This document shows positions 6,827 to 21,827 of a stretch of DNA of 35,768 nucleotides, piece by piece (positions within the stretch are counted from its first letter, which is position 1; each line of letters starts with the position of its first letter). Position numbers and translations under genes: made by a program. The notes below the pieces were generated by a model that did not search any database, was not told the origin of the DNA, and saw only the letters and a program-made list of their open reading frames with translations. This DNA comes from Ignavibacteria bacterium (GTDB lineage: Bacteria > Bacteroidota > Ignavibacteria > Kapaibacteriales > UBA2268). The stretch lies in assembly GCA_026416955.1 (NCBI GenBank), contig JAOAEE010000007.1, positions 1 through 35,768 of the forward strand, written 5' to 3'.

Positions 6827-8119
6827 TTATTTTATCATTGGACCATAATGTTCGAACATATACTTGACAACTGCTTCGGCTTCGTTTGGTTTTAGCCCTT
6901 GATTTGGCATAGGAGGATAATTCGGGTCGACTTTTACTGGGTTCAATATGTATTTGACCATATCTTCTTTTCGATTTTCATACTTTTTAAGTACTTCTTT
7001 ATGAGGGGGACCAACCAATTTTGTTTCAAATTGATGGCAAGCAATACATTTTGCTTTATATATTTCTTCTCCGTTTACTTCTTTTGCAATATTCCGTCCA
7101 GCACTTATCAAAATTTGGTCGTGGTATGCAAGATAGGACTTTGAAATTTTGAACTCTTGCACTTTGTTTGAAATGGAAAGAAGGCTCGTTTCGGAAGCGA
7201 AAAGCAATAGGGACGAGAGAATAATTAAATAGAAAGAAGTTCTTGCAAAAGTTACTTTGTTGTCTTTCAAAGAAAAGTATGAGAGCACTACAGCCAAAAG
7301 TAGAATAAGAAGGGAGATTACAATAAAAATATAATTTTCTAAAACAACGAGTTCTTTTGGTAAAGCAACAAAGTAAACCAAAGAAAAAATAGGAAGAATA
7401 TTGGCAAAAATTAACACATTAGATAAAATTCTATGAATAATTCCATTTTCAGGAAAATGATTACCAATAGCGGAAATTTTGTCCAAAGTATACAATTTGA
7501 AAATGTAAGCAAGAGACGAAACCAAAAAAGAAACAATAACGAAAATTAGAATTCTAATAAGAAAATGGATATTGAAAATATTTAATAAACTAAATTCATT
7601 GAAAGAAAATTTATTGTTAATTGCAAATGAGTATATTCCAATTGTCAAAAGTACTACAATAAAAATAGTTATCAAAGATAAGGTTAGAAAGATAATCTTG
7701 GAATTGCTAATATTTGAAGGATTTTGCTCCTTTAGTAGAATGAAATTAGAAATTTTCAAGAAAATTATTCCAATCACAAACAAAACGAATGAAGAGAAGA
7801 AAACTAATGAAAACTCGTATGGTGGTTTTTGCATAAATTGCAAAAGGGAAAAGTAGACCGATAAAAAAGGAACCAGCCCCAAACCTAATATCGATATATA
7901 TCCTTTGGATGCAAAGTAGATAAAATTTTTCGCTACATTTAAAAAGTAGTCACTTATAAATTTTTTTGCTTTGAAAAAGTAAACTATACTATAAAATAGA
8001 CTTCCAACTAAAAAGGCAAAGTATAGGAAAAAAAGGGAAAGACCAGCAAAAAAGAAAATTTCTAAAAGCTTTGAAACTTGCTCGCTATGGGGTAATGCAA
8101 TGAAGTTAAGGAATTCCAT
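6827..8119 (-). CDS. polytopic membrane protein fused to C-terminal cytochrome c
   Basis: 430 residues. About eight hydrophobic helices (near 20-48, 74-96, 103-125, 141-167, 183-207, 231-252, 260-284 and 290-310) are followed by a class I cytochrome c domain at about 345-428, with CIACH at 358-362 and a likely Met ligand in YPPMPNQ (Met404). The heme domain would face the periplasm. The membrane part is not one I recognise. It does not show the two-fold histidine pattern of heme A synthase or the quinol loop of cytochrome bd; histidines occur at 11, 185, 221 and 229. It is last in the act-cox operon, starting 10 bases after ctaB with a GGAGAAG ribosome site, so a role in electron transfer or oxidase assembly is likely but unproven. 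Confidence 0.75.
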   Translation of the reverse strand: MEFLNFIALPHSEQVSKLLEIFFFAGLSLFFLYFAFLVGSLFYSIVYFFKAKKFISDYFLNVAKNFIYFASKGYISILGLGLVPFLSVYFSLLQFMQKPPYEFSLVFFSSFVLFVIGIIFLKISNFILLKEQNPSNISNSKIIFLTLSLITIFIVVLLTIGIYSFAINNKFSFNEFSLLNIFNIHFLIRILIFVIVSFLVSSLAYIFKLYTLDKISAIGNHFPENGIIHRILSNVLIFANILPIFSLVYFVALPKELVVLENYIFIVISLLILLLAVVLSYFSLKDNKVTFARTSFYLIILSSLLLFASETSLLSISNKVQEFKISKSYLAYHDQILISAGRNIAKEVNGEEIYKAKCIACHQFETKLVGPPHKEVLKKYENRKEDMVKYILNPVKVDPNYPPMPNQGLKPNEAEAVVKYMFEHYGPMIK

Positions 8120-8129
8120 CTATCTTCTC

Positions 8130-8999
8130 CTAAAAATTTAAAATTTTCTGGAAAGAAAGTATTAGAGTGTAAAAAAGTACAAACATATTTAAGTTTAAAA
8201 ATGCTAACTTGTAAAATTTCTGAGGTTGAACGACTTTCACCATTCGATGAATCCGCGCAAGTAGAAAGCAACCCAACAGAAAGACAGTAATAAACGAAGG
8301 AATACTAAACTTATCTAAAAGGCCAATAATTAAAAGTGCAACAACTACAAGACTTACTATCCAAACGAAAGAAAGCCTTGCAATTTGCAAAGGATTAAGT
8401 AAATCAGTTAGAACGGGGAAGCCAGCGTTTCGGTAATCAGTTTCATATACAATTAAAAGTAGCCAAAAGTGTGGAATTTGCCAAATGAAAAAGAAAATTG
8501 CAATCGAAATATTCAATGGATGTAGAAATTCGCCACCAGCGAATGTCCAACCTATCATTGGCGGAATTGCCCCAATGAATGCTCCGGGTAACGCAGCAAA
8601 AGGTGTGCTTCGCTTTAATGGGGTATAAATTAAATTGTAAATAATAATAGCACCTATCCCTAAGAATAAGGGAAAGCTTATCCCTTTTATCACGAAGAGA
8701 AAGGTTAAACCAAGAAATATAAAACTTAAAGATAAAAATAATCCAAATCCAACAGAAAAAACTTTACGAGGTATTGGTCGGTTCCTTGTTCGTTGCATAT
8801 TTCCATCGAATTGCCATTCTTGAACTTGATTCAATCCAGATGAACCACTTGCAAGCAAAAAAATTGCAAACCAAAGTATAAGCAACTCAAAGTTAACTGA
8901 ATTAGTTGCTAAAATGTATCCGAGAATGGAACTAATGGATACTGATATTGAAATAGGAAATTTTACAAAGTTTAAAATATCTCTAAAATTGAATTTCAT
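8130..8999 (-). CDS. ctaB: heme O synthase (protoheme IX farnesyltransferase)
   Basis: 289 residues of a UbiA-type prenyltransferase with about eight or nine membrane helices. It adds the farnesyl tail to heme b to make heme O for the heme-copper oxidase encoded alongside. The first aspartate-rich motif reads NQVQEWQFDGNMQRTRNRP, with Glu in place of the first Asp; the MxRTxxRP signature is intact. A second motif is seen as YNLIYTPLKR and WQIPHFW, then ETDYRNAGFPVL. Its ATG overlaps the coxB stop (ATGA). No heme A synthase (ctaA) is visible in the window, so whether the final oxidase carries heme A or O cannot be decided here. Confidence 0.93.
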   Translation of the reverse strand: MKFNFRDILNFVKFPISISVSISSILGYILATNSVNFELLILWFAIFLLASGSSGLNQVQEWQFDGNMQRTRNRPIPRKVFSVGFGLFLSLSFIFLGLTFLFVIKGISFPLFLGIGAIIIYNLIYTPLKRSTPFAALPGAFIGAIPPMIGWTFAGGEFLHPLNISIAIFFFIWQIPHFWLLLIVYETDYRNAGFPVLTDLLNPLQIARLSFVWIVSLVVVALLIIGLLDKFSIPSFITVFLLGCFLLARIHRMVKVVQPQKFYKLAFLNLNMFVLFYTLILSFQKILNF

Positions 9000-9967
9000 T
9001 GTTTGTTCTTAACAAAGTTGGAGTATAATAAATCAACAATGTAATTTAATTCATCTTCTTTTAAAATGTTTACCGAACTTGGCATCGAGATTTTTTCGTA
9101 TCCTTTAACAATATGCAAATTCGGATTAATAATGGATTCTCGGATATAGTTTTTGTCGATTACGACAGCAGTATCTTTTCCATTGATTTTAACGTTGGCA
9201 AAGCCCCTTTGTAATTCAACGAAAGACGGTCCGATTCCTTTCCGGTTGTCAATGTTGTGGCATTGTACACATCCTTTTGCAAACAGTATAGCGTAACTAC
9301 CAGTTAAGTAATCTTTATAACCACCAGTGTGGGATGCAACATACCTTCTTAAATAGTTTTCATCGACTTTCCCTTGTAACCATTCCGAAAACTCTTTTTC
9401 GGGTACAACATATACTTTTGTATACATTATTGAGTGGTTCATTCCGCAATATTCAGCACAAGCAATATCGAACGACCCGATTTCCTTTGGGTGAACAACC
9501 ATATAGTTTTCCCTTCCGGGTACCGCATCTTCTTTTATGCGAAATGCTGGGATGTAGAAGGAATGGTTTACATCGGTCGCAACAATTGTGAACTTAACTG
9601 GCTTTCCAGCAGGAATAAATAAAGTATCTGTAACTTTTCCATTTTCATAATAAAATTTCCAAGCCCACATTTTTGCTTCGACTTTAACATTCAACGCACC
9701 GGGGGGGACAATTCTCGCTTCCTTGAAAACACCATAACTATAGAAAAACATAGTCAAAACCAATACCACAGGAACTACTATCCATATAATCTCAATGGTT
9801 TTATTTCCTTCAATTTGTGATGCAATAGGATGCTTTTTCCTGTTGTATTTAATAACAAAATAAATCATAGAAATTGTTATTATCAGCAAGAGAATAAATG
9901 AAATACCAATAATATACAGCATTACGTAGTCGACCTTTTGGGCATAGTTTGTTGCGGTTTGGAACAT
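8996..9967 (-). CDS. coxB: cytochrome c oxidase subunit II with fused cytochrome c (caa3 type)
   Basis: 323 residues. Two N-terminal membrane helices (about 15-40 and 58-80) precede a periplasmic cupredoxin domain with all CuA ligands: His135 in DVNHSFYIP, then CAEYCGMNHSIM giving Cys170, Glu172, Cys174, His178 and Met181. A cytochrome c domain follows, with CVQCH at 233-237 and a probable Met295 ligand (KISMPSS). The fusion is the defining mark of caa3 oxidases, which take electrons through the tethered heme c. There is no lipobox. A GGAGG ribosome site precedes the ATG, and coxD ends eight bases upstream. Confidence 0.95.
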   Translation of the reverse strand: MFQTATNYAQKVDYVMLYIIGISFILLLIITISMIYFVIKYNRKKHPIASQIEGNKTIEIIWIVVPVVLVLTMFFYSYGVFKEARIVPPGALNVKVEAKMWAWKFYYENGKVTDTLFIPAGKPVKFTIVATDVNHSFYIPAFRIKEDAVPGRENYMVVHPKEIGSFDIACAEYCGMNHSIMYTKVYVVPEKEFSEWLQGKVDENYLRRYVASHTGGYKDYLTGSYAILFAKGCVQCHNIDNRKGIGPSFVELQRGFANVKINGKDTAVVIDKNYIRESIINPNLHIVKGYEKISMPSSVNILKEDELNYIVDLLYSNFVKNKQ

Positions 9968-9975
9968 AATTCCTC

Positions 9976-10263
9976 CTATCTAAAGAATATATCAGTAGAT
10001 GTTAATATGAAAATTGATGCAAGCGTTGCAAGAGCAACAAACAAGAAAACCCGAAAAATTGCATCATCGAACTTAATGTGCATAAAGTAGTTAATAACTA
10101 GGGTGGACTTTACTGCCGCAATTAATAATGCAAGAAACAGTGCAATTCTTCCGAAATCAACACCAGCCATTGTAACAGTCAATACTGTCAAAGATACTAA
10201 ACTTATCCAAACAAGAACATAAGTTCCATATGGAATTAAATGTGTGTTATGTTCTTTTTCCAT
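9976..10263 (-). CDS. coxD: cytochrome c oxidase subunit IV (small subunit)
   Basis: 95 residues with three membrane helices (about 12-30, 37-55 and 65-90). The pattern TYVLVWISLVSLTVLTV, then AAVKSTLVINYFMHIKFD, is typical of the prokaryotic subunit IV family (COX4_pro), in which K-x-x-L-V-x-x-Y-F-M-H is the conserved core. It stabilises the oxidase and has no cofactor. It sits 10 bases after coxC and 8 bases before coxB. Confidence 0.88.
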   Translation of the reverse strand: MEKEHNTHLIPYGTYVLVWISLVSLTVLTVTMAGVDFGRIALFLALLIAAVKSTLVINYFMHIKFDDAIFRVFLFVALATLASIFILTSTDIFFR

Positions 10264-10273
10264 ACAGCACCTA

Positions 10274-10954
10274 TCAATGAATTAAGTAAAATAATGGGAA
10301 CAAAAAAATCCAAATTAGGTCGACGAGATGCCAATACAATCCAGAATTTTCGAGTTTTATATAGTCCCCTTTTGTGATTTTATTTCGAATGAGGAAAACA
10401 AGCATAAAAAGTAATATAATAGCACCAATAACTACGTGAAGAGCGTGCAATCCAGTCATTGAATAATACATAGCATAGAAGATTATTTCACCATTGGGTT
10501 TGGACAATAGTTCTGGTGCATTGGGATAAATTCCGTGGTGAAATTTTGCAGTCCATTCGAAGTACTTAATCACTAAAAACGCTAATGCAAAACCAATGGT
10601 AGAAATCAGATAGAAGATTGAGAGTGATTTTTTTCCTCTTTGTATGGCTGCGATAGACAAAGCCATTGTTAAACTGCTAGTAAGCAAGATAATAGTATTA
10701 ACTGTTCCAAGAATTAGATTCAACTCTTGTCCTGCAATTATGAAGTCCTTGGTATATTGCAAGCGATATGCCATATAAAGTAGGAACAATCCTCCAAAGA
10801 GTAGAAGTTCAGTAAAAAGAAACAACCACATACCAATTTTCGCACCAATTGCATCCTTATGTTGGTGCGGGTCGGAGATATGCTTTGCTTCCTTTTTTAC
10901 TTCTTGTTCAATGGTTATGTTTGTGGCATCAAGACTTTCCATCTTTTGTCTCAT
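10274..10954 (-). CDS. coxC: cytochrome c oxidase subunit III
   Basis: 226 residues, about five membrane helices after a charged N-terminal tail; this is the short five-helix form of subunit III. Conserved segments are [17 protein letters not shown] with its glutamate, a G-I-Y-P-N-A-P-E loop, [13 protein letters not shown] and [15 protein letters not shown] at the C terminus. The start is uncertain. The ATG at 10954 (MRQKMESLD) overlaps coxA by 26 bases and the ATG at 10942 (MESLD) by 14, and neither has a strong ribosome site. Translational coupling to coxA is likely either way. Confidence 0.92.
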
Positions 10955-12566
10955 TTATGTGTGAAAAATCATATGGTCCGTTGGTAACGTTTGGTATTTT
11001 GTCGAAATTTTCGTGGGGTGGAGGTGATGGTATTGTCCATTCAAGCGTAACGCCACCCCAAGGATTTGCCTCTGCTGGTTTCCCTTTGAATAAAGCATAG
11101 ATTAGATTGGCAAACATAATTATTAAACCAAGGATTAACACCCAAGAACCCACAGTAGAGATAATATGTAATGTTTGATATTCGGGAAGATAACTCCAAT
11201 AGCGGCGCGGCATTCCAAGGTATCCAAGAATGAACATAGTAAAGTACAGCAGATTAAATCCTACAAAAATAAATGGGGTAGCTGCGATTGCAAGTTTCTC
11301 GTTGTACATTTTCCCAAACATTTTGGGGAACCAATAGTGAAGAGCAGCAAAAAGTATTATCGCAGTTCCTCCAAACATAACATAATGAAAATGGGCAACA
11401 ACGAAATATGTATCGGTAACGTGAATATCCGTTGCAAGTGAACCCAAAACCAATCCAGTTAATCCACCGATTGAAAATAGGAAAATGAACATCATTACAT
11501 AAATTAAAGGTGCTCGAAGTTCGATAGAGCCTTTGTAGAGGGTGGCAACCCAATTGAAAACTTTAACCCCACTTGGAACAGCCACAAGAAAGGTTAGCAA
11601 AGAAAACACCATTCTTGCTGTATCGCTCATACCAGAGGTAAACATATGGTGTGCCCATACGAAATATCCGATTAATGCAATTGCTAACGAAGAGAAAGCG
11701 ATTACTTTATAGCCAAAAATTGTCCTTCGGGCAAAAGTTGGAATTATTTCGGAAACCACGCCCATTGCTGGCAAAATCATAATATAGACCGCTGGGTGGG
11801 AATAAATCCAAAACAGGTGTTGGAAGAGCAATGGGTCGCCCCCAAGTGCAGGGTCGAAAATTCCTATATGGAGAACTCTTTCAATTACCACAAGAAGTAT
11901 TGTAATTCCAACTACTGGTGTTGCCACTACTTGTATCCAAGCCGTAGCATATAGTGCCCAAACGAATAAGGGTAAGCGAAAGAACGTCATACCCGGGGCA
12001 CGAAGTCTATGGACTGTTGTAATAAAGTTAAGTCCAGTTAGTATAGATGAGAAACCAAGTATAAATGCTCCAAGCAAAGGAAGTATTACATTTGTTGTTG
12101 TTCTAATACTGTATGGAACATAGAAAGTCCATCCAGTGTCGATTGGACCGCCTTGTAAGAATAACGAAGCAATCGCAAATAAACCACCAGTAATGTATAG
12201 GTACCAAGAAAAAAGGTTTAACCTTGGAAAAGCTACATCACGAGCGCCAATTTGTATTGGAAGGAAAAAATTTCCAAAGATAGCTGGAATTCCCGGAATG
12301 ATAAATAGGAAAATCATTATCACTCCGTGAAGAGTAAATAGAGCGTTGTATGTTTGTGCATCGACAATTGTTTTATCGGGTGTAAGCATTTCCAATTTCA
12401 TAATAAATCCAAGGGTAATACCTACCCAAAGGAAAGAAATCATAGCAATTAGGTAAAGAAGTCCAATTCTTTTGTGGTCGGTGCTTAGTAACCAAGCAAA
12501 AATTCCTTTGTGTGCCTTATACTCTAAGTAGTTTTCTGCTTTTTCAATTAAGGTAGCACTTCCCAT
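10929..12566 (-). CDS. coxA: cytochrome c oxidase subunit I, A2-type heme-copper oxidase
   Basis: 545 residues, about 12 membrane helices; the catalytic subunit that reduces oxygen and pumps protons. Heme and copper ligands are present: His80 (LFTLHG), His257 with Tyr261 (SHPAVY, the His-Tyr crosslink pair), His306 and His307, His392 and His394 (VVAHFHYVM). D-channel entry Asp110 ([11 protein letters not shown]) and K-channel Lys335 (PSGVKVFNW) are kept. The A1-type glutamate (HPEVY) is alanine, and a Tyr255-Ser256 pair stands just before it (WIYSHPAVY), which is the A2-subtype signature known from Rhodothermus-like caa3 oxidases. A GGAGG ribosome site lies in the end of the preceding sco gene, one base away. 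Confidence 0.97.
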
Positions 12567-12567
12567 A

Positions 12568-13338
12568 TTATTCCTCCGAATTTTTCTTTTTCTTTTTGGA
12601 AATGAGTATTACGAAAAAGACTGCCAAGCCAAGAAGCATCACAGTCCCAAAAACTCTTGTAAAGTTAAATACGTAAGTTCGTCCAGAAGGGTCGTATGAA
12701 TAACAAAATTTTAGCAAACGATTGACAGTTGGAAGGGGGATACCTTTTTCTGCTTCGAGAACAGCCATCTTGAAGTCAAAAGGATTAAACTCTGTTCCGA
12801 AAAGATATCGAATTATTTTGCCATCGGGCGAAATAGAATATATTGCTGCACCGTGAACAAAGTCCCCTCTCCCGTCGGGTTTGAAATAGAAGCCAACAGC
12901 ATTTGTAATTTTTCGTATCGAAATACTATCGCCAACAAGGAATGCCCAAGAGTTTTTATCTATTTTCTTTTCCAATCCTTTGATATGATTTTCCTTCCAT
13001 TTCTTCGCTTTATCGAAAGTTTCTGTGTGGTCGAAACTTATTGTTACAAGTTGGTAATCTTTGCCCGGTACAAGTTCGGATTTATCGACAACTTCAGAAA
13101 CTCCGGTTAAAAGTGGACTACAAATGCCGGGACAATGATAATAAACAAACATTAGTATTGTTGGTTTATTTATCAAATTTGCGAGTTTAACTTGCTTACC
13201 TTCTTCGTTAGTAAATACCAAATCGAGAGGTATTTTATTACCTAATTTTTCAACTATTCCAACTTCTGGTTCTTTGTTTCCTTTTAGTGTTAAGGAAAGC
13301 AAAAATAAAATTTGAAAAAGTAGCAAGATTTTTTTCAT
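12568..13338 (-). CDS. SCO1/SenC-type copper chaperone for CuA assembly
   Basis: 256 residues. A signal peptide (about 1-19) leads to a periplasmic thioredoxin-fold domain with the copper-binding HCPGIC motif (Cys69 and Cys73) and the distal histidine His162 in [11 protein letters not shown]-terminal membrane helix (about 228-246) followed by lysines anchors it to the inner membrane. Sco proteins deliver copper or reduce the CuA cysteines of subunit II, which fits the gene lying directly before coxA. The C-terminal anchor, rather than an N-terminal one, is common for copies next to alternative complex III genes in this group. The gene starts two bases after the preceding cytochrome gene. Confidence 0.92.
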
Positions 13339-13340
13339 AA

Positions 13341-14258
13341 CTAATTTGTATTAATCGACATAAGTTTTATTTTTTCAATAAATAGTTGTTTTTCTTGGTT
13401 TGTTGCTAAAATAAATTTCGATGATACTCCATTTAAGGGATAATTTTGTATTAATAGTTGTTCAAGTTCATTTGGAGTTCTCTTGGCGTTAACCAAAAAG
13501 GCCGAAAATTTCTCTTTGTCTTCTATAAATTGCATAATGTAGTTATCGTTCAATAAGTTAGATATAGAATTTGCTTTTGTTTGTACTTCTTGACTTTCGT
13601 TAACAATTTTCGACATTGCTATTCCAATTGGGATAGTTGGTGGAAGTTCGTATGTTTGGGTGACTTTATAATTAGCTTCCAATTCAGCAATATCTTTGTC
13701 GGAAACTTCGCTTTTTTCGTTGGAGAAGCTTTTGATTATGTAAAATAATGCAATTTTTTCACTTGGCGAAAGAAATTCATAGGAAACCATTCCAGTTCCG
13801 GGAATACCTTCTTGCAAAGTTTTGTAGATTTGTGCGATGCTGGTTCCATTTTTCCAACCATCCTTTTTTGTAAAGTCCCTTGGTGGTGGGTTTAGACCTT
13901 TACCAGCAATTCCGTCACCTTTACCAGATTCTCCGTGACAAGTTGAACAAGTAGTCCGAAATATTTCTTCTCCACGCTTTAGCATTGCTTCTGTTGGGTT
14001 CTTGATATATTCAATTTTCACTCCTTCGACTTTTCGACCAAGGGATAGATTTACATCTTTAAATAATTTGGCAGAATCTGGTTCAAAGTAGGGGATAGGA
14101 TTCTTGTAAAATTGGTCGATTTGGTCAAGATATACTATTCCTAAGGCAAAAATTACGAAAAAGAAAAGAATAAACGAATATCCAACCCAACGCTTTGGGT
14201 TTTTAAATACTTGCTTAAAATCAATTTCATCGTAAAAGTAAACGAACAATTTTTTCAT
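13341..14258 (-). CDS. membrane-anchored monoheme cytochrome c
   Basis: 305 residues. One membrane helix (about 25-45) is followed by a class I cytochrome c domain (about 90-180) with CSTCH at 104-108, GKGDGIAGKGLNPPPRDF and a probable axial Met157 (PGTGMVSYEF). About 125 further residues are polar and mostly helical, with no recognised domain. The heme domain resembles the ActE-type cytochrome of alternative complex III. Because this operon already has an ActE domain fused to ActD, this is an additional cytochrome, placed between actF and the oxidase genes. A role as electron shuttle between the two complexes is likely by position only. Confidence 0.82.
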   Translation of the reverse strand: MKKLFVYFYDEIDFKQVFKNPKRWVGYSFILFFFVIFALGIVYLDQIDQFYKNPIPYFEPDSAKLFKDVNLSLGRKVEGVKIEYIKNPTEAMLKRGEEIFRTTCSTCHGESGKGDGIAGKGLNPPPRDFTKKDGWKNGTSIAQIYKTLQEGIPGTGMVSYEFLSPSEKIALFYIIKSFSNEKSEVSDKDIAELEANYKVTQTYELPPTIPIGIAMSKIVNESQEVQTKANSISNLLNDNYIMQFIEDKEKFSAFLVNAKRTPNELEQLLIQNYPLNGVSSKFILATNQEKQLFIEKIKLMSINTN

Positions 14259-14335: not shown

Positions 14336-15526
14336 TTATAAATGAAATTCTAACCCTCGTTTCAACTTGGGGTCGCCAATTGGAATTAAATTAGTTCTTT
14401 TAGAAAAAATGTAAAATGAGCAAACTAGAATACCTATTCCGAAAATTAGAGTTGCAATTTCGAACCAACTAAGTGGAAGTGAATTTTTCGAATAAGTTGG
14501 CATAATAATCCAATATAGGTCATAATAATGAGCAAAAAGAATCCAAATAGCTGCAATTTTTAGTCTTTTAGGGTCCATTTTTGCTGGTTGGGGTAAAAGT
14601 AAAATATATGGTACAATAAATTTTACAAAAATCAATCCAATTGAAAAATAGAGCCAACTACCGGTTCCGCGCATTATATACCAAAAAGTTTCTTCGGGAA
14701 GGTTTGCATACCAAATTAGCATAAATTGACTAAATGCAATATAAGCCCAAAAGTTTGTGAATGCAAAAAGCAAAGCCCCCATACTATAGTAATGGTCTTG
14801 CCCAAGACCTTCGGCAAGGAAACCATTTTCGTTTAAAAGAATTGATGCGAAAGTGAATGCACCTAATGCAGCAAGAAAAGTTCCAGCAAAGTAGTAGACG
14901 CCGAAAATTGTAGAATACCAATGTGGTTCAAGGCTCATTAACCAGTCGATAGCAAAAATTGTTAAAGTGATTGCAAAAATAGGCATAAAGATAGCAGAAA
15001 CAGTAATGTTTTTTCGAGTAAAGTTTTGATTGGGGTTATTATCTTGTTGACGAGAGTTATTGTTGAATAAGAAATAAAATAAATACCAAATAACTAAAAT
15101 AATGATTATTCTAATATAGAAGAAAGATTCGTTGAGATATGGCGATTTGTGTTTCAAGATAGCATCTGTTTGAACAGCTTCGGTATGTGTCCAATGATAT
15201 AGGGAATGTATGTTCAATAATATTGGAATAATCAAAAAAGGGAGTACCCAAATAATAGCAGAGTTAATTTCGGCAACACGTCGGAAAGGGACACTCCACA
15301 CGGCACCAGTTAAGTATTCAATTCCGATAAAGAAAAGGGAACCAATACCTATACTTGCCAACCAACTCATTAAGATGACAAGATTAAAAGAGGTTCTTGC
15401 TGAGTTAACAATAAATCCAATTATGATACCGATTAGACCAACTATTAATAAAGTCAAACCTAAGTTGAAAACCTTTTGAGGTAGAACTTTCTTTTCGTAT
15501 TTGAATTCAAAAGTATTTTCACTCAT
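14336..15526 (-). CDS. actF: alternative complex III subunit ActF (NrfD-like membrane subunit)
   Basis: 396 residues, about ten membrane helices, no cofactor motifs. It is the shorter second NrfD/PsrC-like subunit that pairs with ActC in the membrane domain. Recognisable parts are GSLFFIGIEYLTGAVWSVPFRR, an LYHWTHTEA loop, IDWLMSLEPHWYSTIFGVYYF and FWAYIAFSQFMLIWYANLPEE, all typical of ActF. The family is proposed to contribute to proton translocation, without a quinol site of its own. The ATG overlaps the actDE stop (ATGA) and an AGGAGG ribosome site precedes it. A 77-base gap follows before the next cytochrome gene. Confidence 0.9.
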   Translation of the reverse strand: MSENTFEFKYEKKVLPQKVFNLGLTLLIVGLIGIIIGFIVNSARTSFNLVILMSWLASIGIGSLFFIGIEYLTGAVWSVPFRRVAEINSAIIWVLPFLIIPILLNIHSLYHWTHTEAVQTDAILKHKSPYLNESFFYIRIIIILVIWYLFYFLFNNNSRQQDNNPNQNFTRKNITVSAIFMPIFAITLTIFAIDWLMSLEPHWYSTIFGVYYFAGTFLAALGAFTFASILLNENGFLAEGLGQDHYYSMGALLFAFTNFWAYIAFSQFMLIWYANLPEETFWYIMRGTGSWLYFSIGLIFVKFIVPYILLLPQPAKMDPKRLKIAAIWILFAHYYDLYWIIMPTYSKNSLPLSWFEIATLIFGIGILVCSFYIFSKRTNLIPIGDPKLKRGLEFHL

Positions 15527-16662
15527 TGAACATCCTCCTGTTTAGCATTTAATGAGCGTTGTAGTGCTCTAATGTATAGAACTATTGCCCAACGTTCCTT
15601 TTCGGTCAATTGTTTTGAATAGGAGGGCATAATGTTTTGTCCTTCAACTATGACGTGGTAAATCCTACCATCGGACCAGTTTCTAACTTTTTCCGAATGT
15701 AGGCTTGGTGGGTTAGGGAACTGTCCATTTAAGCGGCTATCTCCTTCCCCGCGCCACCCGTGGCAAGGTGAGCAAAAAGTGTTATATTTTGATTTGCCAA
15801 GCTCCAAATTTTCTTTGCTTGGAAGCAAAGGATTAATAAGTTTGGTTCCTGCTTCGTCGGGTTTTCCTTTGAATGGATAGAAAGCTTCTCCCCGAGCAAC
15901 TGTTCCGGGAACTGGCTTCCTCATTCCGAAACCATCATTGAAGAAAGTGGAAGCTTCTTGGGGATTTAACTTATGTTGGTTCATCATAAAATCAAAAGGT
16001 GGTAAATACAAAATAACGTTGTTGAACAAGTATCCAATTGCTGATGTTAATATTGCTACAACGATTAAAAACACAATGAACTTCCAGTCGAAAACTTTGG
16101 GCTTGTACGAAGTTTCTTCTTCTTGGTAGTAAATATCGATAATGCTATCTGGTTCAAATTGGGAGAATAGGGATTTTATTTCATCATAGTTGAATTTTTT
16201 ATCTTTGGCTTCGATTATTAAACCGCAGTTATCCGAAGAAACTTTCTTTAAGTAATCAGTGTCGTGTAGGGGATGGCGATTGTTGGGAAATTTGAAAATA
16301 ATGAAAAGCATAACTATAGCAGTTCCAACAGATGCTAGTAGAACTGTTAATTCGAATAAGACTGGAACAAATGCTGGGAAAGAGAACCAAGGTTTGCCAC
16401 CAATTATAAGTGGGTAATCAACCGACATTGTCCACCAAGTAAGAAAAAGTCCAAAAGTTGTTCCAGTTAATCCTAAAATTAAAGCTACATAACCCAAAGG
16501 TGACCATTTCAAACGCATTATTTTTGGCAAACCGTGAATGGGAAAGGATGAATGGACATCCCAATTTTTGTATCCTTGTTCAACTATCTTTTTGGCAAGT
16601 TTTACCAACTTATTAGGGTCGTTAAAGAGTGCACCAATTGCATATAATTTCCTACTTTCCAT
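15523..16662 (-). CDS. fused ActD-ActE: DUF3341 subunit joined to cytochrome c subunit of alternative complex III
   Basis: 379 residues. Residues 1-185 are ActD (DUF3341): YAIGALFNDPNKLVKLAKKI, two membrane helices at about 57-78 and 98-123, then a cytosolic beta-alpha tail ending IIDIYYQEEE. A third helix at about 194-215 leads into a periplasmic ActE-type cytochrome c (about 255-370) with PVARG-like spacing (PVPGTVARGEAFYPF), CSPCH at 297-301 and Met345 (NIMPSYS). In most genomes these are two genes, and ActE is a separate lipoprotein; here the membrane helix replaces that lipid anchor. Reading frame and motifs are continuous, with no sign of a sequencing join. Nine bases separate it from actC. 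Confidence 0.9.
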   Translation of the reverse strand: MESRKLYAIGALFNDPNKLVKLAKKIVEQGYKNWDVHSSFPIHGLPKIMRLKWSPLGYVALILGLTGTTFGLFLTWWTMSVDYPLIIGGKPWFSFPAFVPVLFELTVLLASVGTAIVMLFIIFKFPNNRHPLHDTDYLKKVSSDNCGLIIEAKDKKFNYDEIKSLFSQFEPDSIIDIYYQEEETSYKPKVFDWKFIVFLIVVAILTSAIGYLFNNVILYLPPFDFMMNQHKLNPQEASTFFNDGFGMRKPVPGTVARGEAFYPFKGKPDEAGTKLINPLLPSKENLELGKSKYNTFCSPCHGWRGEGDSRLNGQFPNPPSLHSEKVRNWSDGRIYHVIVEGQNIMPSYSKQLTEKERWAIVLYIRALQRSLNAKQEDVQ

Positions 16663-16671
16663 TTCTACCTC

Positions 16672-18033
16672 TTAATGATGTTTGGGTTGTGAATTCGGAA
16701 GAATAGCCTTTACTTCTGAAATGGAAACGACTGGCAAGGCTCGGATGAATAAAATGACCAATGTAAAGAAGAGACCAAAACTTCCTATTAATATACCAAT
16801 ATCGTAGAGTGTTGGTTTAAAGTAGTCCCAACTTGTTGGAAGAAAGTCCCTTGAAGTTGTTGTAACCACAATAACAAACCGCTCGAACCACATACCAACG
16901 TTAACAAGGACCCCAATTATAAACATTGGAATGATTGACCTTCTAATCTTTTTTATCCAGAATAATTGTGTAAAAATTACATTGCACGAGACCATTATCC
17001 AATAAGCCCAAGCATAATTACCAAAAGCCCGATTGATAAAAACGAAAGATTCGAGAGGATTTCCGCTGTACCAAGCGATAAAGAATTCCATTCCATAAGC
17101 ATATCCAACCATCATACCGGTTGCAAGCATAACTTTGTTCATCTTTTCGAGTATGTCTAAAGTAATAATATGTTCCAAATCAAAAATTTTGCGAATAACT
17201 ATTAAAACATTCTGAACCATTGCAAAGCCTGAAAAAACCGCTCCAGCAACAAAGTACGGTGGGAAAATTGTTGTGTGCCAGCCGGGAAGAATCGAAACTG
17301 CAAAATCGAAACTAACTATGGTATGTACTGAAAGAACCAAGGGAGTTGCAAAACCAGCAAGTACTAAGTATATCATTTCGTAATGGTGCCAGTGGGTGTT
17401 CGAATGGCGCCAACCTAAACTAAAAATGGAGTATATGATTTTCTTGACTTTACTTTTAGTTCTATCGCGCAAAATTGCTAAATCGGGAATTAGCCCAATG
17501 TACCAAAATACAAATGAGACAGTAAGATAGGTCGAAACAGCAAATACATCCCAAATTAGAGGCGAAGTAAAGTTTACCCAAAGATGATGTTGGTTTGGTA
17601 AAGGGAACAAGTAACCATCGAGCCAGGGGCGACCAGTGTGAATAAGTGGGAATAAACCTGCTGTCATAACAGCGAAAATTGTCATTGCTTCGGCGAACCG
17701 AGCAATGCCTGTTCTCCACTTTTGACGGAAAAGGAATAAAATAGCGGAAATAAGTGTGCCGGCGTGTCCAATTCCAACCCAAAATACAAAGTTAACAATA
17801 TCGAAGGCCCAACCAATTGGTTGGTTAATTCCCCACAGTCCAAGCCCATAATAAAAAGTGTAACCAAGGCAAATTGCACCAGTTAAAAGCATTGAAACAG
17901 ATATGCCAAGTGCTAAATAATATTTCCAAGTTGGCTTTGTCTCTAAGGGCTTTGCAATAGCATCGTTCACTTGGGATTGGGTTGGATTGCCTTCGATTAT
18001 TTGTGGTTCGATTGTGTAATCAATTTGGTTCAC
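16672..18033 (-). CDS. actC: alternative complex III subunit ActC (quinol-oxidising NrfD-like subunit)
   Basis: 453 residues, about ten membrane helices, of the NrfD/PsrC family. ActC carries the menaquinol site. His132 (LIHTGRPW) and Asp162 (PLIWDVFAV) stand 30 residues apart at the positions expected for the described quinol-site His/Asp pair. Other family marks are [48 protein letters not shown] and [15 protein letters not shown]. Its ATG overlaps the actB stop by four bases. Electrons from quinol would pass to the iron-sulfur clusters of ActB or to the ActA hemes. Confidence 0.94.
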
Positions 18034-21000
18034 GCTTTATCCTCCTGCAATTTGTTGCGTAATTTTGCAATGTATGTTACATTAGGTTTGATATTTAACT
18101 CTTCGAGTACGAAATAACCCAATTGATGGTTCCTCCAATAAGAAACTTCTGAATTTTTGTCGTTCATATCGCCAAAAATTATTGCATTAGCAGGGCAAGC
18201 TTCTTGACAAGCAGTTTTAACTTCGCTACCTTTCAGTTCCCGTCCTTCGGCTAATGCTGTATGCCTTGCATCTGTTATTCGTTGAATACAAAATGTACAT
18301 TTTTCCATTACACCACGTGAACGCACTGTAACTTCTGGATTGTTTAGTAATTTTAATGAATCTTGGTAGAAAAATCCGTTTGCAAAGTGGTTTCGAAAAT
18401 CAAAAAAGTTAAATCTGCGTACTTTGTATGGACAGTTATTTGAGCAGTATCTTGTACCAACACAACGGTTGTAAACCATTTGGTTCAATCCGTCGGGGCT
18501 GTGGTTTGTAGCAACAACTGGGCAAACATTTTCGCAAGGTGCGTCATCGCAATGTTGGCACAACATTGGTTGCAAACTTATTTCGGGATTTTCGGGACTT
18601 CCGCTGAAGTAGGTATCTATTCTTATCCACTGCATTTCTCTTCCTCGGATTACTTGGTCTTTTCCTACTACTGGGACATTATTTTCAACATTGCAAGCAG
18701 TGATGCAAGCACCACATCCAACACATTTATTAAGGTCTATTACCATAGCCCATTTAATTCCAGTATATTTTATTTCTGGAATGATGGACATTTTTTCTTT
18801 TATTCGATGAACTTGGAATTTCCCGTTTTTGTAGCTTTCAAGAGTACCTTCTTGAATAATATGGCGAGATTTGTGTAAGTCCTTAACAAATGTGTCGTTG
18901 AGTGAATGATGCTCAACAGTGCTTGCCAATTTGTATTTTCTGTCGAGTTTGTTAATACTTATGTTGCTCAACACATAACCAGTCTCTAATTCTTTTTTTG
19001 TAAAAAGCACTAAAGGATTGAAGCCCACATTTGAACCAATAGTTCCAACATTATTTTGTCCGAAACCAGCTTCTATTGTTAGGGTCTTTTCTGCAATTCC
19101 GGGAACAATAAAAATTGGAACTTCAAATTTTTTCCCGTTGTACACTATTTCGACTAAGTCTCCGGAAATCAACTTCAAAGCGTTAGCATCTTTTTCAGAA
19201 ATTGCCAGATAATTATCCCAAGTTACTTTTGTTATTGGATGTGGAATTTCAAGCAACCACGGATTATTAATAAATCGACCATCTGCAAGAAAATAAGGCT
19301 TTTTGAGCACCATTGTCCAAGATTTTTGACCTTTGGAAATATTAATGTTCTGAACCTTCGAAAAGTCTGGTACGAGTTTTTCGGTTTTTGTAGTAGAAGA
19401 AACGAACACCCCATTATGAAGTACAGAGAACCAAAATTGTTCGAAAGTAACTCCAGTATTTGCTTTGGAGAAAATTTCCTTTTCCCAGAATTCTTTCAAA
19501 TATTTGTGATAATTGTCGTTTCGCATTTTGCCTTCAACCAAAGCTAGTATTATGCTCTCTTTTTGGTAAGTTCCATAAAGAGGTTCGATTACTGGTTGGG
19601 CAAGTGAGTAGACTGCAATTCCATCGTAATAATCTCCCCAACTTTCAAAATTATGACTTATGGGAATTATTGTTGTCGAGTAGTGTGCAGTTTCATTTTC
19701 ACTTTCCAAGAAAGAAAATACATCTGATACCTTTTTAAAATTATTTTGAAAACCAAGGTCTTTGGGAAGATGATAAATTGGATTGCAATCAAGATTAATA
19801 ATTAACCCAACAGTTCCATTTTGAATTGAGTTCGATAAAATTGAAAATTCTTCCAAAGAGGATTTGGACAAAACTGGTAAAGCCTTGGGTCTATAATTCG
19901 CAGAATTCCCAAGAATTTCATTTAGTAAATAAGTAAGTAAATGAGCTTCATAGTTTAGAGAATCACCAGCAATTATTATTGAACTACCTTGATTTGCAAG
20001 CAAATCATCAACTAACCGTTTGATGAGTTTTAGTTCAATATTATTTTCTTTTACGAATTCATTGAGTTTGAAAATTGAAAATTTGGAGCGAAGTTGTTCG
20101 AGTGGAAAATTATTAACAAGCAACTTGTTTGAATTAATTATTTCATTTATCAAAGTACCAAGTAAATATGTGTATTGACTTGGATGTAATGGGATACGAT
20201 AGTCGGCATTTGCTCCTGTAAGCGTTAAGTCCGATTCAAAGGAGTAAAACCTACTAAAATTCTGTGGTGAGTTTACATCACGGTTTTTTACAAAATCGCT
20301 AATGTTTCTTACGAAATTACCTTCGTTTGCAAGGAAATTACTTTCCAACGAAACAATAATCTTGGCTTTAGAAAAATCTAAATCTTTCGGATTTTGATTG
20401 GGATAGAAATCCATCCAGGCCCTTTGTTTGGGATAAGGTTCTAAAAAATCGTAGGTATAAATTTTTGTATTTGGGAATTTTGTCTTAAAATCGTTGAGGA
20501 TTTTTGCAAATGAGGGAGAAAATATTGGTTTCGAAATAATTGCAATTTCTTTTCCCTCGGTTGCTGCTTTATTTATTGCCCCAAGCAAAGAAGAGAATGC
20601 AGCAAGAAATTCAATTTCTTCCCATTTTCCATTATTGTTTTTTAAAGGTTTCTTGTATCTTTCTGGATTGAACAAATTTAGAATACTTGCTTGGGCAGTG
20701 GCGCATATTTTTCCTTTGTTTACTGGATGGTCGGGATTACCATCAACTTTTATTGGGCGTCCTTCGCGTGTTTTTATCAATATTCCACAATGGTTTGAAC
20801 AACCGGTACAAGTCGATGCATAAAAATTAGATTTACCGGGGAGTACATTTTCAGGTTTTTGGTTATATGGAACGATTTCTCCTTTATCTCGATAGTTTGT
20901 GCAAGCAACGGTAGTCAATGCAAAACTTGCAGCAGAAATTGCAAGAAATTTCCGCCTCGAAATTCCGGTAAGTTGGTTTGGGTCGAATTCTTCTTTAACA

Positions 21001-21086
21001 CTATCTTGAAATTCGATTTGCTTATTAATTTGGCTTTTAACTGGAAATTTTAGTTCGTCTAAACTTTTCCAAATTTTTTTATCCAT
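18030..21086 (-). CDS. actB: alternative complex III subunit ActB (molybdopterin-like plus iron-sulfur domains)
   Basis: 1018 residues. An N-terminal tail of about 40 residues precedes a Tat-like signal ([20 protein letters not shown], 43-62) ending in a lipobox-type cysteine. Domain ActB1 (about 85-750) has the molybdopterin-oxidoreductase fold, which in this family binds no cofactor. Domain ActB2 (about 775-1000) is a four-cluster ferredoxin: C788/791/794/798, C843/846/851/855, C875/881/885 (three cysteines, TRYC type, likely 3Fe-4S) and C930/933/960/964. ActB1 here still has a C-x2-C-x3-C...C pattern (93, 96, 100, 128), as in true molybdoenzymes. The large periplasmic subunit sits on ActC. 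Confidence 0.95.
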
Positions 21087-21248: not shown

Positions 21249-21827
21249 CTACCTATGGCAAGCACCGCAAAAATCTGGACCATTATTAATTTTATCCTTC
21301 AATTCTGGTAACCTTTGGTGGGCATTTCGATGGCAATCCAAGCAAGCCCCCATCGTAAACCTTTGAACTTGTTGAACTTTATCCATTTTGTCTATCTCTC
21401 CGTGACAGTGTTTACAATCGATACCCTTGTTGACGTGGACGGCGTGGTTAAAATAAGCAAAATCTGCTAGTCGGTGTATTCTTTTCCAACGGAGGGGCTT
21501 TTCATCAGCAAAGAATTGAGCAAGTTTTAGTATTTCGGGCCTATCTTTTCTTGCAATTGTGTGGCAATTCATACAAATGTCGGTTGATGGAATTGTTGCA
21601 AAGCGACCTTTTTCGACGCCAATGTGGCAATATTTACAGTCGATTTGCATATTACCAGAATGGAGCTTGTGTGAGAAATTAATGGGTTGTTCCGGAGCAT
21701 AGCCAACACTGTCGCGTTCAGGTCTAGAGATAAAAAAAGTAACAAAATATGCAACTGCAACAACAAATGCGGTTATAGGCAGCCTTACTTTTAATAAATA
21801 ATCCAGTTGAGATTTTAACACATTCAA
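21249..21827 (-). CDS. actA: alternative complex III subunit ActA, pentaheme cytochrome c
   Basis: 192 residues. One N-terminal membrane helix (about 16-34) precedes five CXXCH heme sites at 64-68, 85-89, 138-142, 162-166 and 187-191, the last almost at the C terminus (CGACHR). Extra histidines (FSHKLH at 51-56, RIHRL, FNHAVH) supply distal ligands. This is the standard ActA plan. The subunit lies on the periplasmic side, accepting electrons from the complex and passing them on to a cytochrome. It is the first gene of the 15-kb act-cox operon, with a CGGAG ribosome site five bases before the ATG; the promoter should lie just upstream, in the AT-rich DNA after 21828. Confidence 0.95.
   Translation of the reverse strand: MNVLKSQLDYLLKVRLPITAFVVAVAYFVTFFISRPERDSVGYAPEQPINFSHKLHSGNMQIDCKYCHIGVEKGRFATIPSTDICMNCHTIARKDRPEILKLAQFFADEKPLRWKRIHRLADFAYFNHAVHVNKGIDCKHCHGEIDKMDKVQQVQRFTMGACLDCHRNAHQRLPELKDKINNGPDFCGACHR

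Follow-up and report, generated by a model that had tools for sequence, protein, structure and literature searches.

The closest described counterpart of the gene considered here is MROS_0033 of Melioribacter roseus, which has been published as a class I soluble cytochrome of the c551/c552 kind (PMC3534657, PMC5492636). The published work gives it the role of a shuttle between ACIII and the oxidase and reports proteomics in which it was reliably identified in aerobically grown cells only; the M. roseus oxidase is described as closest to those of the Desulfovibrionales (PMC3534657). An orthologue of MROS_0033 lies in the window, the 35,768-nucleotide stretch of an Ignavibacteria bacterium that was analyzed here (GenBank assembly GCA_026416955.1, contig JAOAEE010000007.1), at the same operon place and with 29% identity over 448 columns. 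Its predicted structure and sequence relatives place it within the cytochrome bd superfamily, as a heme-less member that has lost the superfamily's axial His and carries a cytochrome c at its C terminus. In the literature searched, which was mostly open-access, no description of the 430-aa protein as membrane-bound or CydA-like was found, and we consider the family a real, widespread membrane subunit that this literature leaves undescribed. The reading that we favor, and hold to be somewhat probable, is that it forms a structural subunit of an assembly between ACIII and a heme-copper oxidase, with a tethered heme c that would feed CuA.

The gene reads as an intact ORF of 430 aa with an ATG start and closes an operon of the order ActA-ActB-ActC-ActDE-ActF-cytc305-SCO-CtaD-CtaE-COX4-CtaC-CtaB-430-aa gene (Table 1), in agreement with the first-pass annotation, which had placed it last in a respiratory operon, after ctaB. 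The ctaB stop and the ATG are 10 bp apart, and an AGGAGA motif 6 bases 5' of the ATG overlaps the TAG stop of ctaB; judging from this gap and motif, the two genes are probably translated from one message. The gene order of G188:C1 is that of Mros0045-0033 (PMC3534657), and the M. roseus gene at the ActF position belongs to the published ACIII cluster. Between ActF and SCO, the gene for cytc305 is conserved along with the 430-aa gene, and its position in sister operons without the 430-aa gene is taken by a heme-less ORF of 128-200 aa. Elsewhere in the window's genome, a partial ActD match (E 3.9e-11) adjoins a cytochrome c domain (G000:C34:58068-58995). This may be what remains of a second ACIII, or a variant of one.

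Table 1. Features of the operon in the window and the basis of each assignment.
Feature	Position	Strand	Basis
430-aa protein, heme-less CydA-fold membrane module and C-terminal cytochrome c	6827..8119	-	ORF, Pfam, alignment, model
Eight-helix membrane module with the fold of CydA (cytochrome bd subunit I), residues 1-336	7112..8119	-	AlphaFold2; VIA Z 22.4-24.4; model residues 11-334
Class I cytochrome c domain, residues 349-421	6857..7075	-	Pfam, c551/c552 relatives, VIA Z about 10
Heme c attachment motif CIACH, residues 358-362	7034..7048	-	C358, C361, H362 invariant 31/31
Met404, probable sixth heme ligand	6908..6910	-	Invariant 31/31
Shine-Dalgarno-like AGGAGA over ctaB stop codon	8126..8131	-	Sequence reading
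CtaB, heme O synthase (UbiA family)	8130..8999	-	PF01040
CtaC, oxidase subunit II, CuA domain and fused heme c	8996..9967	-	PF00116, PF02790; CxxCH in sequence
COX4-type subunit IV	9976..10263	-	PF03626
CtaE, oxidase subunit III	10274..10954	-	PF00510
CtaD, heme-copper oxidase subunit I	10929..12566	-	PF00115, E 2.7e-147
SCO1/SenC copper chaperone	12568..13338	-	PF02630
cytc305, 305-aa membrane-anchored monoheme cytochrome c	13341..14258	-	PF00034; conserved in operon
ActF	14336..15526	-	Named by position and kin, no Pfam match
ActD fused to ActE monoheme domain	15523..16662	-	PF11821, PF13442
ActC, NrfD-type membrane subunit	16672..18033	-	PF03916
ActB	18030..21086	-	ORF adjoining ActC; identity from sequence reading and kin
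ActA, five CxxCH motifs	21249..21827	-	Sequence, homologues

The C-terminal domain, to judge from its sequence and model, has the features of a class I cytochrome c, namely CxxCH, a distal Met, and a c551-like fold. Pfam Cytochrom_C matches residues 349-421 (E 1.2e-7), solved c551/c552 structures are its relatives, with which VIA-align gave a Z of about 10, and C358, C361, H362, and M404 are invariant in all 31 aligned relatives, M404 presumably serving as the axial ligand by analogy with c551. These relatives (alignment A1) are what remained of 35 BLAST hits after removal of the window's own gene (L004), L037 (the same as L007), L024 (cut by a contig end), and L039 (a cytochrome c match only). 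In 31/31 of them, with both termini assigned to the outside, K+R are more numerous in the inside-assigned loops than in the outside-assigned ones, which places the heme c in the periplasm.

Residues 1-336 of the window protein have no Pfam or NCBIfam match, and when the 31 members were scanned singly only scattered matches in one or two members appeared outside the cytochrome c (best E 0.00091, in one member). PF01654 is absent among the 25 of 38 Pfam families listed for them. An AlphaFold2 model built on a 31-sequence alignment (pLDDT 88.6, pTM 0.76) has eight long helices before the heme domain, at residues 13-54, 74-96, 101-130, 139-168, 184-209, 226-252, 260-286, and 289-317. Foldseek ranked cytochrome bd chains first, CydA and CydB alike (best E 4.8e-4), and VIA-align superposed 297-307 residues on each of ten CydA entries at Z 22.4-24.4 and rmsd 3.0-3.9, ahead of the NrfD-type subunits from ACIII and from polysulfide reductase, which came next with Z 16-18. 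By this model, the membrane part has the fold of the CydA (cytochrome bd) superfamily. The earlier description of an eight-helix membrane protein with a cytochrome c domain is thus borne out by the model helices, Pfam, and the invariant heme residues; its label "unassigned" stands as far as Pfam and NCBIfam names go and falls for the structure, since the membrane part clearly matches a characterized cytochrome, CydA (Z 22-24), the very outcome that the annotation had named as its refutation. Kinship with NrfD, ActC, or ActF was considered and rejected on the lower structural Z (16-18 versus 22-24 for CydA) and on profile scores of 0.4-0.9%.

The profile link to cytochrome bd runs through intermediates. 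A PF01654 search of 100 genomes of the class returned canonical CydA in many and a divergent CydA of 440-530 aa in others; 5 of 30 CydA loci were dropped because the ORF picked there lacked GRQPW. Fetching 15 of the divergent loci revealed paired genes: one encodes a CydA that ends in a heme c domain, the other a heme-c-free, CydA-like partner of 368-385 aa (for example, L126:5547-6650 and L124:788-1891). We call such a pair OR-C-like, a tentative assignment of our own; OR-C enzymes carry heme c. The qOR, OR-C, and OR-N families are described in PMC10839748. Against the CydA-like partner, the family profile scored 98.2% (E 3.3e-14, 16 sequences) over nearly the whole length, and 97.1% with a 15-sequence set; against cytochrome-c-bearing CydA it scored 75.9-84.6%. 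The chain continues with 97.8% between the partner profile and cytochrome-c-bearing CydA and 96.0% between the latter and CydA. Control alignments of CtaB, CtaE, ActF, ActC, and CtaD gave 0.1-0.9%, and eight column shuffles gave 0.0-0.3%. CydB was rejected as kin at 0.4%, with a CydB set of 13 that includes at least one doubtful ORF (L188). Kinship of the 430-aa protein to CydA rests on the predicted fold together with these intermediates. Two points count against the favored reading here: the family profile compared directly with canonical CydA gave 0.6%, and the model of the partner subunit, which matches CydA at Z 23-26, has moderate confidence (pLDDT 71.3).

The CydA-like partner resembles the 430-aa protein in its predicted fold, in the absence of the active-site Glu, and in an LG-x-x-P-L segment, but it has the TM1 His (16/16), a ninth helix, and no heme c, and it adjoins its catalytic CydA, whereas the 430-aa gene does not lie beside a cytochrome-c-bearing CydA as an OR-C-like partner does. 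The same architecture as in the 430-aa protein is found in a 449-aa protein (L090:9094-10440) of G057, a Bacteroidota genome of another class, in which a partner-type membrane part is followed by a C-terminal c551-like domain. Unlike the 430-aa protein, it and a 330-aa protein (L091:6681-7670) keep the TM1 His and adjoin a cytochrome-c-bearing CydA. Since a partner-type protein with both the His and a heme c exists at L090, the architecture probably predates the loss of the His and would have arisen within a bd-type oxidase. At both loci a cytochrome-c-bearing CydA is paired with a CydA-like protein (L090:9094-11947 in G057, L091:5247-7670 in G180), and in G057 both members have heme c; in the PF01654 search, the G057 CydA is not listed at E 0.01 and that of G180 is not reported.

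A joint alignment of 77 rows shows what has been lost. The TM1 ligand His, which we take to be H19 of the E. coli enzyme, is present in 42/42 relatives (16/16 partners, 18/18 cytochrome-c-bearing CydA, 6/6 CydA, and 2/2 bridging sequences) and in 0/35 family rows, where the column holds Phe (21), Leu (12), Val (1), or Tyr (1). The Glu pair of the oxygen-reducing site, presumably E99 and E107, is present in 24/24 rows of CydA and cytochrome-c-bearing CydA, in 0 partner rows, and in 0/35 family rows, and the family also differs at the columns of the GRQPW motif. Both this residue table and the tree omit L023, L025, L029, and L033; eight further members of the family were brought in, and canonical CydA is represented by 6 of its 25 rows. 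In the tree the family forms a single clade with an SH-aLRT support of 99, apart from the CydA-type group, its exact sister group being unsure given a quick method, a midpoint root, and long branches. The protein appears to descend from, or to share an ancestor with, the CydA-like partner of two-gene bd-type oxidases. CydA itself, subunit I of cytochrome bd, is like the 430-aa protein in the fold of its first eight helices and differs from it in having the heme ligands, the Glu pair, GRQPW, and a PF01654 match. What is known, then, is the fold; what is surprising is the loss of the hemes and a home in the operon of another oxidase superfamily.

A search with the whole protein gave matches in 165 of the 395 genomes sampled from the phylum, in many of which only the cytochrome c was responsible. 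Searching the same number of Bacteroidota genomes with the membrane part (alignment A2) gave 63 matches, 58 of them from the window's class with E values of 1.5e-19 or below, a recurrence well above what chance would give; the other five are the different protein of G057 (E 5.8e-16) and four weak matches. Within this 395-genome sample, the family is confined to the window's class. At 66 loci, which were chosen for holding a match and so tell of place and not of presence, 61 copies adjoin CtaB or CtaC, 3 follow COX4 in a reduced operon, and 2 lie elsewhere, so that 64/66 belong to an ACIII/oxidase operon. Presence was counted over a fixed set of 100 genomes from the class, of which 43 have the gene (45 positives less G412 and G419, whose hits, at E 1e-4 to 1e-6, fall in CydA-like partners). 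The gene accompanies one kind of oxidase: it is present in 42/42 genomes whose CtaD is at least 64% identical to the window's and in 0/47 of those with a CtaD at most 59% identical (Fisher p 2e-26, uncorrected for genome kinship). In the 43rd positive genome, G377, the copy is partial and lies at the end of a contig, and a CtaD was not found. Likewise, 40/40 genomes in which ActD is fused to ActE have the gene. In both co-inheritance and operon membership, the family therefore behaves as a part of the ACIII/oxidase assembly.

This distribution also bears on whether the protein could be a working subunit of a bd-type oxygen reductase, as its CydA fold and its kinship to bd-type partner subunits might invite one to think. 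We regard this as scarcely credible. The ligand His and both Glu are gone, and the catalytic partner, a cytochrome-c-bearing CydA, is absent from the window's genome and present in only 9 of the 43 gene-positive genomes. Eleven of the 43 have neither a PF01654 match nor a cytochrome-c-bearing CydA, which argues that the gene does not serve a bd oxidase.

The place after ctaB had led the first-pass annotation to think of heme A synthase, and part of that thought survives: no ctaA was found in the window's genome, and CtaA occurs in 1 of the 43 genomes with the 430-aa gene (G093) versus 45 of the 57 without it. That the protein replaces heme A synthase is nevertheless very improbable. Heme A synthase (CtaA/COX15) has four conserved heme-binding His in its membrane helices, whereas the 430-aa family has a CydA fold and no conserved membrane His; a copy also lies in a nos cluster away from the oxidase, and the family is present where no A-type oxidase is left. 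No heme A synthase entries stand among the VIA-align matches listed, beyond which other families may also match. The absence of CtaA from 42/43 genomes, together with the name cc(o/b)o3 that the M. roseus enzyme received because it resembles the D. vulgaris one (PMC5492636), makes us prefer the explanation that the oxidase of these genomes probably uses heme O or B.

Four residues, His11, His185, His221, and His229, had been singled out in the earlier annotation, which considered a quinol- or substrate-oxidizing site on the membrane His; they are His in 3, 1, 1, and 1 of the 31 relatives, so no conserved heme is bound by them, and a bis-heme cytochrome built from these four was rejected on the same ground. 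His occurs in at least half of the rows of the membrane part at columns 15 (23/31) and 97 (19/31) only. With the superfamily's ligand His and Glu missing as well, the proposed site is not supported, and the suggestion of a proton-moving subunit found no support. A related alternative, in which the module binds quinol or couples energy without a membrane heme and passes quinol electrons to the tethered heme c, seems to us improbable. It can draw on the weaker likeness in fold to the NrfD-type subunits of ACIII (Z 16-18) and on Q94, which is Gln in 30/31 relatives. The membrane part, however, offers no redox group to split the electrons of quinol and no GRQPW-type motif, and ACIII of the same operon already oxidizes quinol. 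In the 31 relatives only M1 and P84 are invariant, with P10, S12, L18, G39, S44, G81, Q94, S183, P243, and Y281 nearly so, and these conserved positions are mostly packing residues (P10, S12, G39, S44, G81, P84, P243, Y281).

Under the reading that we favor, electrons from menaquinol would pass through the hemes of ACIII to the periplasmic, c551-like heme, which on its short linker would accept them from the ActE heme or from the 305-aa cytochrome and hand them to CuA of CtaC and thence to the heme-copper site, doing the job of the CtaC-fused cytochrome c of sister oxidases. Counts of that fused heme, made on ORFs of at least 195 aa, fit such an exchange. CtaC carries a fused heme c in 7/58 gene-positive operons with a complete CtaC (8/59 counting the window) and lacks it in 51/58, and it carries one in 5/5 sister operons without the 430-aa gene whose CtaD is 56-59% identical (L169-L172, L176); in L173 and L174, more distant and also without the gene, CtaC has no heme c. 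In most members, by these counts, the heme of the 430-aa protein would take the place of one fused to CtaC, and the window's lineage has both. This last circumstance weighs against the favored reading, since the CtaC of the window already has a heme c and an extra one is not strictly needed there.

Three genomes in which the oxidase has been reduced are informative about the membrane part. G216, G345, and G385 (99-100% complete) have no PF00116 CuA domain and only distant CtaD matches (23-25% identity), the one in G216 falling in a 703-aa ORF with heme c that reads as probably CcoNO of a cbb3 oxidase. They nonetheless retain ActABC-ActDE-ActF-cytc305-CtaE-COX4-430-aa-protein homologue (L166, L212, L215), with CtaD, CtaC, SCO, and CtaB missing from the operon. 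Two of these homologues (342 and 364 aa) have lost the cytochrome c domain, and the third retains it. These losses suggest that the heme domain goes with CuA and that the membrane part is tied to ACIII, CtaE, and COX4. In the ACIII-oxidase supercomplex of F. johnsoniae, contact is made via subunit III (PMC8361435), and the membrane module here would probably pack against CtaE, subunit IV, and ACIII. Retention of a homologue without the oxidase core also counts against the favored reading, in that a part of the function must be independent of CuA.

The sole copy in G294, a genome outside the 100-genome sample and an exception to the operon rule, closes a nos cluster (L044:8937-10202), and the oxidase operon of that genome stops at ctaB, a further point against the subunit reading. 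The cluster encodes a clade II NosZ (TIGR04246, 949 bits), NosD, an ABC ATPase, and a permease; NosZ, too, is an enzyme with a CuA site (CoxB profile match). One may think of a heme-stripped bd-superfamily subunit that was taken over to deliver electrons to CuA enzymes in general, a tentative idea to which we give slightly less than even weight. Its membrane part would dock on ACIII and subunit III and its heme c would serve CuA, in a heme-copper oxidase in one case and in N2O reductase in the other. A small DoxX/HvfX-like gene follows the G294 copy, and a small membrane gene of the same kind lies downstream of a further copy in G132 (L163:8792-10063), which by reading is near nrfHA, a NapH/MauN-like ferredoxin, and an Rrf2-like regulator. 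In G134, a 502-aa ORF (L093:7975-9480) reads as a NosD-like parallel beta-helix with a C-terminal cytochrome c resembling that of the 430-aa protein.

These same neighborhoods could point to a role in assembly or maturation, with the protein acting as a membrane chaperone and its heme c taking part in redox or heme handling during insertion of CuA or heme. The 430-aa gene adjoins CtaB downstream of SCO, the nos copy adjoins the maturation genes NosD and putative NosFY, and a heme-less fold would be compatible with a chaperone. Yet a homologue is kept in the three genomes that have no CtaD, no CuA protein, and no SCO or CtaB in the operon, and the membrane part of the 31 relatives has no conserved Cys and has Met in at least half of rows at Met1 and Met283 only. 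We therefore judge a maturation role unlikely, and return to the structural subunit with a tethered heme c as the preferred reading.

For M. roseus, the published functional guess agrees with this preferred reading, but the description as soluble conflicts with the membrane module that MROS_0033 shares with the 430-aa protein. If the assignment is true, the respiratory scheme of M. roseus misplaces its cytochrome c, as soluble rather than membrane-embedded, and more generally "cytochrome c551/c552" annotations can conceal a large membrane module for which Pfam has no name. A respiratory supercomplex would contain, as a structural part, a dead relative of a competing oxidase, and were the module a general one for CuA enzymes, two large oxygen-reductase superfamilies would be joined in one complex. 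Complex III could then be wired to complex IV in a way other than through the fused cytochrome of caa3, and a cultivated bacterium is at hand in which this can be examined.

Arrangements of comparable purpose are familiar. In caa3 enzymes, a cytochrome c is fused to the oxidase. Cytochrome cy is a membrane-tethered heme c between complex III and complex IV (PMC8361435). The 430-aa protein can be likened to both as a heme c tethered between the two complexes. It differs from them in its anchor, which for cytochrome cy and caa3 is one helix or CtaC itself and for the 430-aa protein would be an eight-helix fold of the bd type.
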